A DNA stretch of 64,000 nt. Origin: Amycolatopsis benzoatilytica AK 16/65. Its GTDB lineage: Bacteria > Actinomycetota > Actinomycetes > Mycobacteriales > Pseudonocardiaceae. This document shows positions 23,310 to 28,413 of this stretch, in pieces; the stretch's first letter is position 1, and each line of letters starts with the position of its first letter. The notes beneath the pieces were generated by a model, which ran no database searches, had not been told where the DNA came from, and was given only the letters and a program-made list of their open reading frames with translations. The position numbers and the translations under genes were made by a program. The DNA lies in contig NZ_KB912942.1 in NCBI RefSeq assembly GCF_000383915.1, positions 814,506-878,505 on the forward strand, written 5' to 3'.

Positions 23310-24677
23310 GTGCAGGACGTACTTGCCGGGGCCTGGCAGGCGCTTGCCGGGGAACCGTTGCCCGCCGTGTCGCTGACCGGCGACGAATCTGTGCTGCCCG
23401 GGCCTTTCCGGGTCCCCGCGATGGCGACCGCGAGCATTGCCGCGGCCACCCTCTCCGCGGGTGAACTGCTGCGCCTGCGCGGTATCGAGCCCGGCACGGT
23501 GTCCGTCGACACCCGGCACGCGGCCGCCGCGTTCCGCAGCGAACAGCTGCTGCGCATCGACGGCGAGCCCGCGCCGAGCCCGTGGGGCCGGATCGCGGGC
23601 GACTACCGCGCGTCCGACGGCTGGATCAAGCTGCACTGCAACACCCCGCGGCATGAGGCGGCGGTCTGCTGGGCGCTCGGTGTTCCGGCGGTGCGTGACT
23701 CGGTGGCCAAGACAGTCGCGGCGAAGACGATGGCGGAGGTCGAATCCGCGGTGGTCACCGCGGGCGGCGTGGCCGCGTTGATGCGCTCGCGCGAAGACTG
23801 GCTCGCGCACCCGCAGGGCCGAGCGGTCGCCGAGCTGCCGCTGGCGGAACTGAACCGGATCGGCGACGCGCCCAAGCGCACGCTGTTCGATTCGGAGCGT
23901 CCGATGGGCGGTGTGCGCGTGCTGGAGCTGACGCACGTGCTCGCCGGTCCGGTCGCCGGGCGGGTGCTCGCCGCGCACGGCGCGAATGTGCTGCACATCG
24001 GCGCGGTGCACCTGCCGCGGATCCCGATGCTGACCATGGACACCGGGCAGGGGAAGCGATCCGCGTTCGTCGCGCTCGACACCGAGGGCGGTCGTGCGAA
24101 GCTGAAGAAGCTCATCGCCCGCGCGGACGTCCTGGTGCAGTCCTTCCGCCCGGGCGCGCTCGCCCGGATCGGATTCGGGCCCGAACAGCTCGCGGAGCTG
24201 CGGCCCGGCCTGGTCGTGGCCGACCTGTCGGCGTACGGCTGGCGGGGCCCGTGGGCTCGCCGGCGCGGTTTCGACAGCCTGGTGCAGATGTCGTCCGGCA
24301 TCGCCGAGGAATACGCGACTGACACGCCGGCCCCGCTGCCCGCGCAAGCGCTGGACCACGCGACCGGCTGGCTGGCCGCCGCCGCGGTCATGACCGCGGT
24401 CCGCCGCACGGTGACCGAAGGCGGCAGCTGGCACATCCGGCTGTCCCTCGCCGGTACTGGCCGGTGGCTGGACTCGTTGGGCCGCAAGGACCCGGAACCG
24501 TCCGAAGTGGACTTCTCGGAAGTGCTGGAGACGGTGGACAGCGACTTCGGCCGGATGACCCGGGTGCGGATGGCCGGTGACCTGCCCGGCGCGCAGCCGT
24601 ACTGGGACCACGCCTCGCACCGGCCGGGCGCGGATACCGCGGTCTGGTCGCCGGTGGTGCCGCACGCGGTTTCCTGA
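23310..24677 (+). CDS. Class III (CaiB/BaiF-type) CoA-transferase family protein
   Basis: A 455-residue protein made of two partial CaiB/BaiF-like halves. The second half (from about residue 195) shows the family start MGGVRVLELTHVLAGPVAGR and the LVQSFRPGALARIGFG and LVVADLSAYGWRGPW stretches. The first half contains a DGWIKLHCNTPRHEAAV region typical of the C-terminal part. CoA-transferases of this class move CoA between carboxylates via an aspartyl-CoA intermediate; the usual catalytic Asp is not obvious to me at the MTMDTGQGKR stretch, though the Asp there is a candidate. It follows chdC by five bases. Substrate unknown. Confidence 0.75.
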   Translation: MQDVLAGAWQALAGEPLPAVSLTGDESVLPGPFRVPAMATASIAAATLSAGELLRLRGIEPGTVSVDTRHAAAAFRSEQLLRIDGEPAPSPWGRIAGDYRASDGWIKLHCNTPRHEAAVCWALGVPAVRDSVAKTVAAKTMAEVESAVVTAGGVAALMRSREDWLAHPQGRAVAELPLAELNRIGDAPKRTLFDSERPMGGVRVLELTHVLAGPVAGRVLAAHGANVLHIGAVHLPRIPMLTMDTGQGKRSAFVALDTEGGRAKLKKLIARADVLVQSFRPGALARIGFGPEQLAELRPGLVVADLSAYGWRGPWARRRGFDSLVQMSSGIAEEYATDTPAPLPAQALDHATGWLAAAAVMTAVRRTVTEGGSWHIRLSLAGTGRWLDSLGRKDPEPSEVDFSEVLETVDSDFGRMTRVRMAGDLPGAQPYWDHASHRPGADTAVWSPVVPHAVS

Positions 24678-24711
24678 GCCGCGCTTGCTCGACCGTCGCT
24701 GCTGGGCCAGT

Positions 24712-25038
24712 TCAGCGGCGCAACCATCGCCGCCGCGGTCTGGCCAGCTCGCCCCGGGAGACGAGCCATTCCGCGAACGCGTCCGCGTATTCGCGGGCTC
24801 GAATGGACGTGGTTTTCGGGTTTTCCGCGGCATACGCGTCGAACAACGGCCGGTACCGTTCGCCTAGCGAGTCCGGCAGGTCTGGCCGGAGATACGCGAC
24901 CAATCGCCGCCGCTTGGCGCGCAGCACGTCGGCTTCGACCCGCAGCCGCGACGGGTCGAAGCCGGCCGGCGCGGCGGCTCCGGTGAGCAGGCTGTCCAGC
25001 AGCGCGGCCTGCCGTGCCGCCAGTTCTTCGCGGCTCAC
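24712..25038 (-). CDS. Small partner protein of the DUF692/MNIO enzyme (SCO6045-like)
   Basis: A 108-residue, charged, mostly helical protein. It starts at GTG 25038, overlapping the MNIO stop (GTGA), so it is translated from the same message. The pattern ARQAALLDSLLTG, then an LRxxRRxLVAYLRPDLP stretch and LGERYRPLFDAYAAENP, follows the spacing of the N-terminal domain of DUF2063-type partners that present substrates to DUF692 enzymes. That likeness is my reading of the pattern, not a search. The C terminus is very basic (RPRRRWLRR). I recall Streptomyces homologues in the same context. Likely role: substrate recognition or delivery. Confidence 0.7.
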   Translation of the reverse strand: MSREELAARQAALLDSLLTGAAAPAGFDPSRLRVEADVLRAKRRRLVAYLRPDLPDSLGERYRPLFDAYAAENPKTTSIRAREYADAFAEWLVSRGELARPRRRWLRR

Positions 25039-25838
25039 CGCGTCACCGCGGTCCGCAGCGCGGCCAGTTCGGACGCCAATTCGGAATCGGTGGGGTAGTC
25101 GTCGTCGCGTTCCAGCAGCACGCCTGACGGATTCGTCCGGAGACGCAATTCGGCGAGCAAGTCCAGCACTTCCGGCAGCAGCGGATGTGCGTGCGTGTCG
25201 TGGTAGACGCCGTCGCGTTCGATCCCGCCCGCCATGTGCACGTACGCGAGCCTTTCCCACGGAATCCCGTCCAGGAAAGCGGCTGGATCGGTGCCGAGGT
25301 TCCGCGCGTTCGCGTACAGATTCGCCACGTCGACGATCAGCAGACAGCCGGTCCGTTCGGTCAGCTCAGTGAGGAATTGTTCTTCGGACAGCTCGGTTTC
25401 CGGCCACTCCAGCAGTGCGGCGATGTTCTCCAGCGCGATCGGTACCTCCACAATGGACTGTGCCAGCCGGACGTTGTCCACCAGTACGTCCAGTGCCTCG
25501 CGGGTGCGCGGCAGCGGCATCAAGTGCCCGGAGTCGAGCCCGCCTGCCCGGACGAAGCAGACGTGGTCACTGGCCAGCGGCGCGTCCAGGGCGCGGGCCA
25601 GTTCGGCGAGATGCTCCACCCGCGCGGTGTCCAACGGCTCCGCGCCGCCCAGCGACAGCGACACCGCGTGCGGCAGCACCGGCATTCCGCGCTCCTTCAA
25701 CGCCAGCAGGCTTTCCGGCAGGTGCGGCGCGTGCAGGTTCTCCGCCACCACCTCGACCCAGTCGACGCCCGCCATCCGCGCGATCGACAGGTCCAGCTCC
25801 GGCCGCCAGCCGATGCCGATCCCCAGCCGGTCAACCAC
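25035..25838 (-). CDS. DUF692 / MNIO family multinuclear iron-dependent oxidase
   Basis: A 267-residue TIM-barrel enzyme of the DUF692 family, now known to include MbnB, TglH and related enzymes that oxidatively modify Cys-containing peptides with a multi-iron centre. Candidate metal ligands are conserved in order: H57 (LPHAVSL), D91-H92 (ASDHVCF), E137-N138 (IALENIA), D170 and N173 (VDVANLY), H201 (YVHMAGG), D214 and H216/H218 (YHDTHAH), and E243 (LLERDDD). The N terminus GIGIGWRPEL is typical. The GTG start overlaps the preceding membrane protein by eight bases, and its AGGAGG lies inside that protein's Gly-rich coding tail. Family identity is firm; the substrate is inferred. Confidence 0.9.
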   Translation of the reverse strand: MVDRLGIGIGWRPELDLSIARMAGVDWVEVVAENLHAPHLPESLLALKERGMPVLPHAVSLSLGGAEPLDTARVEHLAELARALDAPLASDHVCFVRAGGLDSGHLMPLPRTREALDVLVDNVRLAQSIVEVPIALENIAALLEWPETELSEEQFLTELTERTGCLLIVDVANLYANARNLGTDPAAFLDGIPWERLAYVHMAGGIERDGVYHDTHAHPLLPEVLDLLAELRLRTNPSGVLLERDDDYPTDSELASELAALRTAVTR

Positions 25839-26676
25839 CGCAGCCTCCTCCGCCGCAACCGCCGCCGCCGCCTCCGCCGCAGGAAGACCCTCCGCCGGAA
25901 GAACCCCCGCCGCTCATGAGCGCTGCACTCGTCACGCCGTCCGGATACTGCGCGAACCCGCCCACTGCGACCAGCGAAGCCGCGCCGGCCACCAGTGCCG
26001 TGCCCAGGACGCCCGCGGTTTGCCGATCGGCCCGCGTGCTGTCCACCAGCGCTCGGCCGGCCTTCGTCGGGCGCGCTTTCGTCCGGTCGCGGGTGGAGAA
26101 CGCGAGAACCGCCAGGATCGCGGTGACGACCAGGAAGACGTTCAGATTGCTGGTGGGCCGGTGCAGATGCGCGCCGTTCACCGACCGGATCGCTCCCACC
26201 GCGAACAGCGCCAGGAACGCCAACGCGATTCCGACCCGGTACCGGCCGGACACCACGACGACCAGGCCGCGCCGTTCGAGATCGCGGCCGAGTTCCTGTG
26301 TCGGCGGCAGGACGGCTTTCGACGCCCGCACCTGAGCGACCGTGCGAGAAGACTGTCCGACGGCCTCGTAGATCGCCGCTTCGATCGGAGTGGCGAGCAA
26401 TCCCGAGGCGATCCGGCTGAGCCGCCCGCCGGAACTGGCGCGCAACCGGTTCTGTTCCAGCAACGCCGCGATCGCAGTGTCGACCACCCGGTTGGGCCCG
26501 CCCGCGAGATACGCGAACCGGTAGACGTCGAGCGGACTGGCCAGGTCGGCTTGCGTCCCGCCGCGCAATGCCAGTGCGACGCTCGGCCACAGCAGCCAGG
26601 CCACGCCCACTGCGACCAGTGCCGTTCCGTAGAGCAGCAGGAATTGCGGTCCGGAAAGACCCCACGGTTCCGCCAT
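25831..26676 (-). CDS. TIGR04222-like membrane protein with C-terminal Gly/Cys tail (short-tail paralogue)
   Basis: A 281-residue membrane protein. One helix follows the start MAEPWGLSGPQFLLLYGTAL, a cytoplasmic winged-helix-like region covers about residues 45-130 (YLAGGPNRVVDTAIAALL), then come two or three more helices. The last 16 residues contain three cysteines (C266, C274, C279) separated only by glycines, ending CGGGGCGG, and I see no other Cys in the protein. I start at ATG 26676 (GAGGAGG four bases upstream). It resembles the family I know as TIGR04222. It precedes and overlaps the DUF692 gene, so its tail is a candidate substrate. Paralogue of the next upstream gene. Confidence 0.8.
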   Translation of the reverse strand: MAEPWGLSGPQFLLLYGTALVAVGVAWLLWPSVALALRGGTQADLASPLDVYRFAYLAGGPNRVVDTAIAALLEQNRLRASSGGRLSRIASGLLATPIEAAIYEAVGQSSRTVAQVRASKAVLPPTQELGRDLERRGLVVVVSGRYRVGIALAFLALFAVGAIRSVNGAHLHRPTSNLNVFLVVTAILAVLAFSTRDRTKARPTKAGRALVDSTRADRQTAGVLGTALVAGAASLVAVGGFAQYPDGVTSAALMSGGGSSGGGSSCGGGGGGGCGGGGCGG

Positions 26677-26710
26677 CGCGCCTCCTCTTCCCAACGCCAG
26701 CTTAGGGTTC

Positions 26711-27670
26711 CTACCCGCCGCAGCCGCTCCCGCCACCGCAGCTGCTGCCTCCGCCGCAGGAAGACCCGCTGCTGCAGGACGATCCGCTGCTGCACGACGA
26801 GCCGGACGACGAACCGCCGCTCCAGCCGCCTCCGCCGGACCACGCGCTGCCGCCGCTCAGCAGAGCCGCGCTGATCTCGTCGTCCGGGTAGAACGCGATT
26901 CCGCTCAGCGCCACCACCGTCGCCGCTCCGGCGAACAACATGCCGCCGCCTGGGTTCGCCGCGGCGAACTCCTCGGGACGTTCCTGCGCGGCTTTCGCGT
27001 CTTCGCGGGCTCGCGTGACGAGCGCGTGGCCGGCCTCGGTCGTCCTTGCCGTCTGCGTGCGCTTCCGCGTCGCGAACGCGATCACTGCCAGGAGCCCGGT
27101 GCCGATCAGCAGCGCCACCAGCCCGCCGATCGGCCGGTGCAGCTGGGATCCGTTGACGGCCCGGACGATGCCGATCAACAGCAGCAGGACGTACGCCAGC
27201 GCGACGCAGTCGCGGAAACCGCCGGCCGGGTCGCCGACAGTCACCAGGCCGTGGTCGTCGAGCCCGGCCCGGATCTTGGCCAGCTCCGGCTGCACCCACC
27301 GGGACGCGCGAATCTCCGCGGTCGTGCGCGACGTCCCCTGCGTCGCGTCGTGCACCGCGCGTTCCAAGCCGTGCAGATCCAGCCGGTCGCCGACCGCGGT
27401 GAGCTTGCCGCGGGTGCTCACCCGCAGCTCTTGGCGTTCCAGCAGCGTCGCGATCGCGGTGTCGACCGCGCGGGGCGCGCCGCCGGAGAGGTACGCGAGC
27501 TGGTAGACGGTCGGCTGCGCGAGCGGGACAGCCGGGCGCGTCCGCCCTTCTTTCTGCCGCCGCGACCGGACAACGCCCGGCCCGATGAGTTGCGCGAGCA
27601 GTACTGCCGCCACTGCCAGCCCGTAGACCAGCAGGAACTGCGGCCCGGAAATACCCCAGGGCTCGTCCAC
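26711..27670 (-). CDS. TIGR04222-like membrane protein with period-six Cys tail (long-tail paralogue)
   Basis: A 319-residue paralogue of the downstream gene, sharing the start (V/M)DEPWGISGPQFLLVYG, the YLSGGAPRAVDTAIATLL region and the RAVNGSQLHRP loop between helices. The C-terminal tail holds cysteines at 293, 299, 305, 311 and 317, exactly every six residues in SSGSSC, GGGSSC and GGGSGC units, ending CGG. Only one other Cys is present (FRDC, at a helix start). GTG start at 27670 with a GGGGG tract upstream. Thirty-four bases separate it from the paralogue. First gene of the four-gene DUF692 operon and the best candidate substrate. Confidence 0.8.
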   Translation of the reverse strand: MDEPWGISGPQFLLVYGLAVAAVLLAQLIGPGVVRSRRQKEGRTRPAVPLAQPTVYQLAYLSGGAPRAVDTAIATLLERQELRVSTRGKLTAVGDRLDLHGLERAVHDATQGTSRTTAEIRASRWVQPELAKIRAGLDDHGLVTVGDPAGGFRDCVALAYVLLLLIGIVRAVNGSQLHRPIGGLVALLIGTGLLAVIAFATRKRTQTARTTEAGHALVTRAREDAKAAQERPEEFAAANPGGGMLFAGAATVVALSGIAFYPDDEISAALLSGGSAWSGGGGWSGGSSSGSSCSSGSSCSSGSSCGGGSSCGGGSGCGG

Positions 27671-27981
27671 AGTGTGCCCCCTTTCTCCTGTGTCGCCGGA
27701 CTTTATCCGTCCTGGTCAACGGAGCTTGTCGGCAGAACTGACGGGGCTGAGGTCCGTGTCGTTCCCGGATTTCAGCCCGGACGGAAGCCAGCACGAAGCC
27801 GTCTAACAGGTCCACGACCATCGCGGTCGCGGCTGTCGCCACGCCGCGAGTCGTCCATTCCATTCCGGGCCCCCTTCCCGTTGCGCGTTCGACGCTGGGC
27901 GGGTCGCCGGGGTTGCCTTCGCGGCAAAGAAAACCGCCCTCCCCGGAACAATCCGGGAAGGGCGGGCAGGAGAGATCCGGC
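27671..27981. other. 311-base gene-free region upstream of the MNIO operon
   Basis: It lies between the msrB stop and the first membrane-protein start on the same strand. It should hold the operon promoter, but I cannot pick a clear -35/-10. A 70-codon open stretch starting at ATG 27861 (minus strand) contains a TTA codon and runs out of frame into the membrane gene, so I do not call it. A hairpin GGAAGGGCGG near 27955-27965 and a CCGCCCTCCCCGG near 27930-27943 could form the msrB terminator. Confidence 0.35.
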
Positions 27982-28413
27982 TCAGTCGCCGGACTCCTCC
28001 GGGACAAGCTTCAGCGAAATCGAGTTGATGCAGTAACGCTGATCGGTCGGAGTGGCGTAACCCTCGCCCTCGAAGACGTGCCCGAGATGGCTGTGGCAGG
28101 ACGCGCACAGCACCTCGATGCGCCGCATGCCCATCGTGCGGTCCTCGCGCAGCAGCACCGCGTCGGAGTCCGCCGGGTCGTAGAACGACGGCCAGCCGCA
28201 GTGGCTCTCGAACTTCGTGCCGCTGCGGAACAGCTCCGCGCCGCAGGCCCGGCACTCGTAGACGCCGGTGGTCTTCGTGTCGGTGTACTCGCCGGTGAAC
28301 GGCCGTTCGGTGCCCGCCTGCCGAAGCACCGCGTACTCCTCGGGAGCCAGCTGTTCCCGCCATTCCTGATCGGACTTCACCACGCGCGGGGTGGTGCCGA
28401 CCACGGGTTTCAT
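27982..28413 (-). CDS. msrB: Peptide-methionine (R)-S-oxide reductase MsrB
   Basis: A 143-residue enzyme that reduces methionine-R-sulfoxide in proteins. Structural zinc ligands are C54/C57 (YECRACG) and C103/C106 (LCASCHSH). The catalytic Cys is C128 in RYCINSISL, and C72 lies in HCGWPSFYDP. I start at ATG 28413, nine bases after GAGAGG. It sits near chdC and hemE, an arrangement I also recall from mycobacteria. Confidence 0.95.
   Translation of the reverse strand: MKPVVGTTPRVVKSDQEWREQLAPEEYAVLRQAGTERPFTGEYTDTKTTGVYECRACGAELFRSGTKFESHCGWPSFYDPADSDAVLLREDRTMGMRRIEVLCASCHSHLGHVFEGEGYATPTDQRYCINSISLKLVPEESGD

Follow-up and report, generated by a model that had tools for sequence, protein, structure and literature searches.

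Two TIGR04222 membrane proteins with cysteine-rich tails are candidate substrates of an MNIO enzyme encoded in the same Amycolatopsis operon

Organization of the operon

We examined a stretch of 64,000 nucleotides from Amycolatopsis benzoatilytica AK 16/65 (NZ_KB912942.1, positions 814,506 to 878,505 of the forward strand; hereafter the window), in which four genes on the minus strand encode an enzyme of the DUF692/MNIO family, a small partner protein and two paralogous membrane proteins of the TIGR04222 family. An earlier note made from the letters of this DNA had pointed to this gene set, and the gene coordinates bear out its place, with all four genes on the minus strand. In order on the minus strand, these genes encode TIGR04222-A (26711-27670, 319 amino acids), TIGR04222-B (25831-26676, 281 amino acids), the MNIO (25035-25838, 267 amino acids) and the partner (24712-25038, 108 amino acids, GTG start). 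TIGR04222-A and TIGR04222-B are spaced by 34 nucleotides, TIGR04222-B overlaps the MNIO gene by 8 nucleotides, and the MNIO stop overlaps the partner gene by 4 nucleotides. The enzyme gene is therefore overlapped on both sides as first described, except that TIGR04222-A lies upstream of TIGR04222-B and takes no part in the overlap. The four genes form one operon. For TIGR04222-B we assigned the start to the ATG at 26676, not to the upstream GTG at 26736, because the ATG aligns with the starts of relatives.

Both membrane proteins match NCBIfam model TIGR04222.1 well above its cut-off of 43 (126.4 bits for TIGR04222-A and 110.8 bits for TIGR04222-B), and thus the family name given in the note proved correct. 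Each protein ends in a Gly/Ser/Cys tail that holds almost all of its Cys residues, again as claimed: five of the six in TIGR04222-A (positions 155, 293, 299, 305, 311 and 317) fall within the last 27 residues, and all three in TIGR04222-B (266, 274 and 279) fall within the last 16.

Relationships of the enzyme and its partner

The enzyme matches PF05114 with 274.2 bits (cut-off 25, E 1.3e-81), and its profile is related to the solved chains of 3bww, TglH and MbnB. Members of this family are iron enzymes known for the chemical remodeling of Cys residues. The metal-ligand pattern reported earlier is intact, in that H57, D170 and H201, together with H92, E137, N173, D214, H216 and E243, are invariant among 16 aligned sequences including that of the window. 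We take these nine positions to be the ligand positions, as read against the 3bww, TglH and MbnB alignments. The best-scoring enzyme model is BufB (200.3 bits, under its equivalog cut-off of 310), and the MbnB model gives 42.2 bits (cut-off 325).

The partner, which contains no Cys, is assigned through precomputed Pfam matches of its relatives to PF26136, named 'SCO6045-like C-terminal domain'. Its score against DUF2063 is 15.3 bits, under the cut-off of 27.2, and it appears to be distantly related to that domain. Because it directly follows the MNIO and falls under the DUF2063 cut-off, it probably belongs with the PME-type 2 partners; PME-type 1 proteins combine a DUF2063 domain over the cut-off with an RRE domain and measure about 250-260 amino acids. 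MbnC comes closest to the partner model. A comparison of the partner profile with PDB sequences returned nothing at E ≤10, Foldseek gave no hit at E ≤0.001 with either model, and no DUF2282 (bufferin precursor domain) is found among the Pfam matches of the four operon proteins at E ≤1.

Association of cysteine tails with MNIO genes

To place the operon in a wider setting, we used a sample of 295 Actinomycetes genomes, taking regions with 1.5 kilobases (kb) of flanking sequence and scoring up to nine TIGR04222 candidates per genome, such that weak copies may be missing. Matches over the cut-offs place an MNIO in 75 genomes, TIGR04222 in 85 and both in 62. A protein was called Cys-tailed if its last 50 residues include at least three Cys and at least 50% Gly, Ser and Cys combined, a rule chosen after the tails had been seen. 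By this rule 52 of 112 TIGR04222 proteins are Cys-tailed and 50 of these 52 occur in genomes that carry an MNIO, with the other 60 proteins split between 37 in MNIO-bearing genomes and 23 in genomes lacking the enzyme (Fisher p 7e-6, kinship ignored). Counted by genome, those with TIGR04222 comprise 45 with tail and MNIO, 2 with the tail only, 17 with the MNIO only and 21 with neither. One of the two exceptional proteins (genome G060) comes from an assembly in which a contig edge lies just past the first residues of an MNIO, whose start is readable, and the other (G149) has a Ser-rich stretch without the usual tail pattern; G049, from the genus of G060, yielded no MNIO, and its tail is without the Gly/Cys pattern. 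Seven Cys-tailed proteins are unlinked to an MNIO gene and nonetheless reside in MNIO-bearing genomes. Among 67 Gly/Ser-rich tails, three or more Cys are present in 51 of 58 from genomes with an MNIO and in 2 of 9 from genomes without (these being G060 and G149; kinship ignored).

The partner profile matches all 54 TIGR04222-linked MNIO loci, and at 31 of them the partner is fused in frame to the enzyme. Loci L155, L087 and L176, where the two reading frames differ, were counted as separate. Such natural fusions would provide single-chain MNIOs, like the one engineered from HvfB and HvfC (PMC13419390).

Tails of this kind also occur on other proteins. With a rule of at least three Cys and at least 65% Gly, Ser and Cys in the last 45 residues, another tail-bearing open frame is present at 9 of the 18 loci that combine MNIO and partner but lack TIGR04222, at one (L096) of the 12 MNIO loci for which no partner was found, and at none of 47 TIGR04222-only loci. 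Seven of the nine carriers, with starts chosen by hand, can be interpreted as short proteins that have a single helix at the N-terminus. The other two (L141 and L162) are about 450 amino acids long with a Gly/Cys tail at the end, lie beside a fused MNIO-partner gene, and show no Pfam or NCBIfam match at E ≤0.1. Two further frames are listed for the 54 linked loci: that at L086 probably corresponds to TIGR04222 itself, and that at L103 (3469-3663), a Ser/Gly/Cys frame of 65 amino acids directly after a tail-less TIGR04222 gene, would be either a tail gene that has become detached or the result of a frameshift.

The genome of the window (8,704,271 bases) contains a single MNIO match. It also encodes a third protein that exceeds the TIGR04222 cut-off (L003, G000:C1:5375519-5376199), which lies 4.5 Mb away and ends in a Gly/His/Cys tail, making it a candidate unlinked substrate in trans, and there is one more TIGR04222 match below the cut-off.

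Predicted structure and topology of TIGR04222 proteins

The AlphaFold2 model of TIGR04222-A has long helices at 9-42, 148-176 and 182-204, a tail with confidence scores (pLDDT) under 50, and a region near 243-261 that is split into short helices (244-247, 249-256 and 264-272). Among 100 aligned relatives, Lys plus Arg (K+R) and Asp plus Glu (D+E) values are 4.33 and 1.07 after helix 3 and 0.10 and 1.48 at the N-terminus. The topology sets drawn from the sample exclude the protein of the window and comprise 49 Cys-tailed proteins, 19 tail-less linked paralogues and 19 proteins from genomes without an MNIO; for the Cys-tailed set the corresponding values are 3.88 and 1.02 after helix 3 and 0.39 and 1.06 at the N-terminus. 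In the aligned relatives, region 243-261 has a mean hydropathy of 1.25 with little charge and is followed by acidic residues (K+R 0.66, D+E 2.16), and the same region has 1.58 K+R in the tail-less paralogues. All seven short tail proteins carry positive charges after their helix, which predicts that their tails lie inside. Because of the model and the charge bias, we suggest that the Cys tail faces the cytosol, contrary to the placement in PMC12452194.

The family itself is likely to be distantly related to the DUF2207 C-terminal domain, which is matched by 47 of the 100 aligned sequences at E ≤1 (best 1.9e-5). Pfam GPP34 is matched by five of the 100 at E ≤1, with a best value of 0.0028 that does not reach the cut-off, and P0004 gives no match; TIGR04222 proteins differ from GPP34 proteins (GOLPH3/Vps74) in having a helix at the N-terminus, a pair of inserted helices and the tail. 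Against PDB sequences, the best rows for the membrane profile align with the low-complexity tail, and winged-helix regulators are matched weakly (E 0.16-1).

Proposed function and alternative explanations

We consider it likely that the MNIO and its partner oxidize Cys residues in the disordered Gly/Ser/Cys tails of both TIGR04222 proteins, based on the intact ligand positions, the DUF2063-related partner, the overlapping genes, the tails themselves, and the near restriction of such tails to genomes that carry an MNIO. The partner would dock on the MNIO and make it active, by analogy with HvfC and HvfB. Each modified Cys would be turned into a heterocycle, with a 5-thiooxazole (4 Da lost per Cys) as the most likely form. 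This is our first guess because the enzyme scores best with the model of the bufferin maturase and Gly follows most of the tail Cys, and because of related chemistry: FonA was found to lose 4 Da at each Lys-Cys motif, a change assigned to 5-thiooxazole (PMC13097082), and HvfB, whose active iron state requires HvfC, installs copper-binding 5-thiooxazoles (PMC13419390). The tail would remain on the cytosolic membrane face, where a soluble enzyme could reach it, and the product may be an array of soft-metal or redox ligands that is tethered to the membrane and serves under metal or oxidative stress. If resident membrane proteins of many actinomycetes do bear modified Cys tails on that face, a common family without an assigned role gains a function.

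A broader proposal, which we offer tentatively, is that the Gly/Ser/Cys tail is a portable module modified by MNIOs on unrelated carriers (TIGR04222 proteins, short single-helix proteins and a protein of about 450 amino acids), forming a brush of modified Cys on the cytosolic face with a role in peroxide or metal stress, and with enzyme and partner fused in many Streptomyces. It would mean that this post-translational modification acts on resident membrane proteins and not on an exported peptide; the papers cited here describe MNIOs acting on small precursor peptides. A possible connection to peroxide comes from Streptomyces coelicolor SCO6045, which the name of PF26136 suggests is a fused enzyme. 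It is one of 28 genes that are both upregulated by peroxide in the wild type and deregulated in an hbpS-senS-senR mutant (3.0-fold for SCO6045), a set that includes cysteine biosynthesis genes (PMC4991794).

Several observations weigh against the proposed relation between enzyme and tails or against the predicted topology. In a paired tree test covering 103 of the 112 proteins there were six supported contrasts, leaving the test without power and the coupling inseparable from shared descent. The check by linkage that the earlier note had called for gave a mixed answer: an MNIO is found within 6 kb of 63 of the 112 TIGR04222 proteins, and Cys tails are almost confined to genomes with an MNIO, but a Cys-tailed TIGR04222 is missing from 14 of the 54 linked loci. 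Thirteen of these 14 belong to group f17, in which they make up 13 of 24 linked loci that keep the enzyme and partner; this group is probably Streptomycetaceae, because the fused enzymes among our named loci (the best 80 of at least 571 confirmed) are from Streptomyces. Furthermore, the 19 tail-less linked paralogues are acidic after helix 1 (K+R 1.89, D+E 3.89), and the seven of them that have an N-terminal segment are basic there (2.29 and 0.29), charges that do not fit the predicted topology with a cytosolic domain and the tail inside.

These points bear unequally on the alternatives. The same enzyme and substrates could be at work with a fourth helix spanning the membrane, so that the modified tail acts outside as a membrane-anchored counterpart of bufferins. 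This arrangement, stated from predicted topology in PMC12452194, is favored by the hydropathy and low charge of region 243-261, by the acidic residues that follow it, and by the charges of the tail-less paralogues. We nevertheless regard it as rather unlikely, given that the model has only three long helices and splits the fourth region, that a positive excess follows helix 3 and the N-terminus is negative in both the aligned relatives and the Cys-tailed sample proteins, that the tail-less paralogues carry K+R within region 243-261, and that the short tail proteins uniformly have positive charges after the helix.

Tails might instead bind metal through plain Cys, with the MNIO acting on another substrate. 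Cys-rich chains can bind soft metals unmodified, and the f17 loci that retain enzyme and partner without a Cys-tailed TIGR04222 fit this reading. It is made improbable by the near restriction of Cys tails, unlinked ones included, to genomes with an MNIO, by the presence at MNIO loci of other proteins with such a tail and by the gene overlap. That the tail is a neutral low-complexity extension, with Cys arising by chance from Gly/Ser codons, would agree with its variable length and sequence and with the Gly/Ser-rich tails in genomes without an MNIO; the marked difference in Cys content between the two groups of Gly/Ser-rich tails leaves this explanation with very little credibility.

Beside these alternatives we note a recurrent arrangement at L078, L082, L147 and L163, where a fused MNIO-partner gene, a DUF4142-like gene and a tail-less TIGR04222 gene with EPDLRAA near its end occur without a Cys tail at the locus. 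The DUF4142-like gene lies between the other two in the four inspected loci (by Pfam in one and by eye in three).

Relationship to known systems

The idea that Cys-tailed TIGR04222 proteins are MNIO substrates, which the earlier note put forward, is already known as a prediction for Actinomycetota. In 2025, PMC12452194 collected more than 3,500 TIGR04222 proteins, mostly from this phylum, drew attention to the Ser/Gly/Cys tails at their C-termini and suggested that subsets of them are MNIO substrates. It also named partners of PME-type 2, among them a 115-residue Saccharothrix protein; the sections on TIGR04222 proteins report no experiment on them. Our genome comparison strengthens the predicted pairing of tail and MNIO. 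The systems share the enzyme family, the membrane family, the tail and a short, putatively DUF2063-like partner. They differ in that partner genes are described there as apparently missing from many TIGR04222 clusters, whereas here the partner profile is found at every linked locus and is often fused, and in that we predict the tail to lie inside.

Bufferins, oxazolins and fontiphorins (BufABC, HvfABC and FonABC) likewise pair an MNIO, BufB being the nearest enzyme model, with a DUF2063-type partner, which together act on several Cys per chain. Their precursors carry Sec signal peptides and their partners are DUF2063-RRE proteins (PMC12452194, PMC13097082). The present operon encodes proteins integral to the membrane instead, and its partner is similar in size to a lone DUF2063 domain. 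Methanobactin synthesis by MbnB/MbnC is similar in using an MNIO with a helical partner, and different in that the enzyme scores far below the MbnB cut-off and no small precursor peptide is seen here.

Neighboring genes and sequences

The note had also remarked on adjoining haem genes as a hint of iron or copper handling. A hemQ gene does adjoin the operon, together with a CoA-transferase gene; both are on the plus strand and convergent with the operon, and thus they are neighbors and not operon members. Among the best 80 of at least 571 loci, hemQ lies within about 6 kb in 47, always on the opposite strand, so we rejected a haem link to operon function as a matter of neighborhood, and the hint is weak. 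The same-strand upstream neighbor is msrB, present in 39 of these 80 loci (38 of 44 in L187-L230 and 1 of 36 in L231-L266).

No sigma-R-like motif (GGAAT or GGAAC, 16-20 bases and GTT) is present in the 311-base gap upstream of the operon, and no sigma-70-like site was found in 24600-28100. A terminator-like hairpin on the minus strand (27934-27965) follows msrB and lies between it and the operon, although the count of two such sites, against 1.4 expected in shuffled sequences, is not significant. On the same strand, two stretches of 27692-27990 match sequences that flank the first TIGR04222 gene of L187 (67.6% over 142 bases and 76.9% over 78 bases), and are separated by about 80 bases in the window and about 900 in L187. 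This region looks like the remnant of a further TIGR04222 paralogue that has lost its body. Several of the loci L187-L232 contain as many as four TIGR04222 genes in tandem close to a single MNIO gene, and the Cys spacing of their tails differs.
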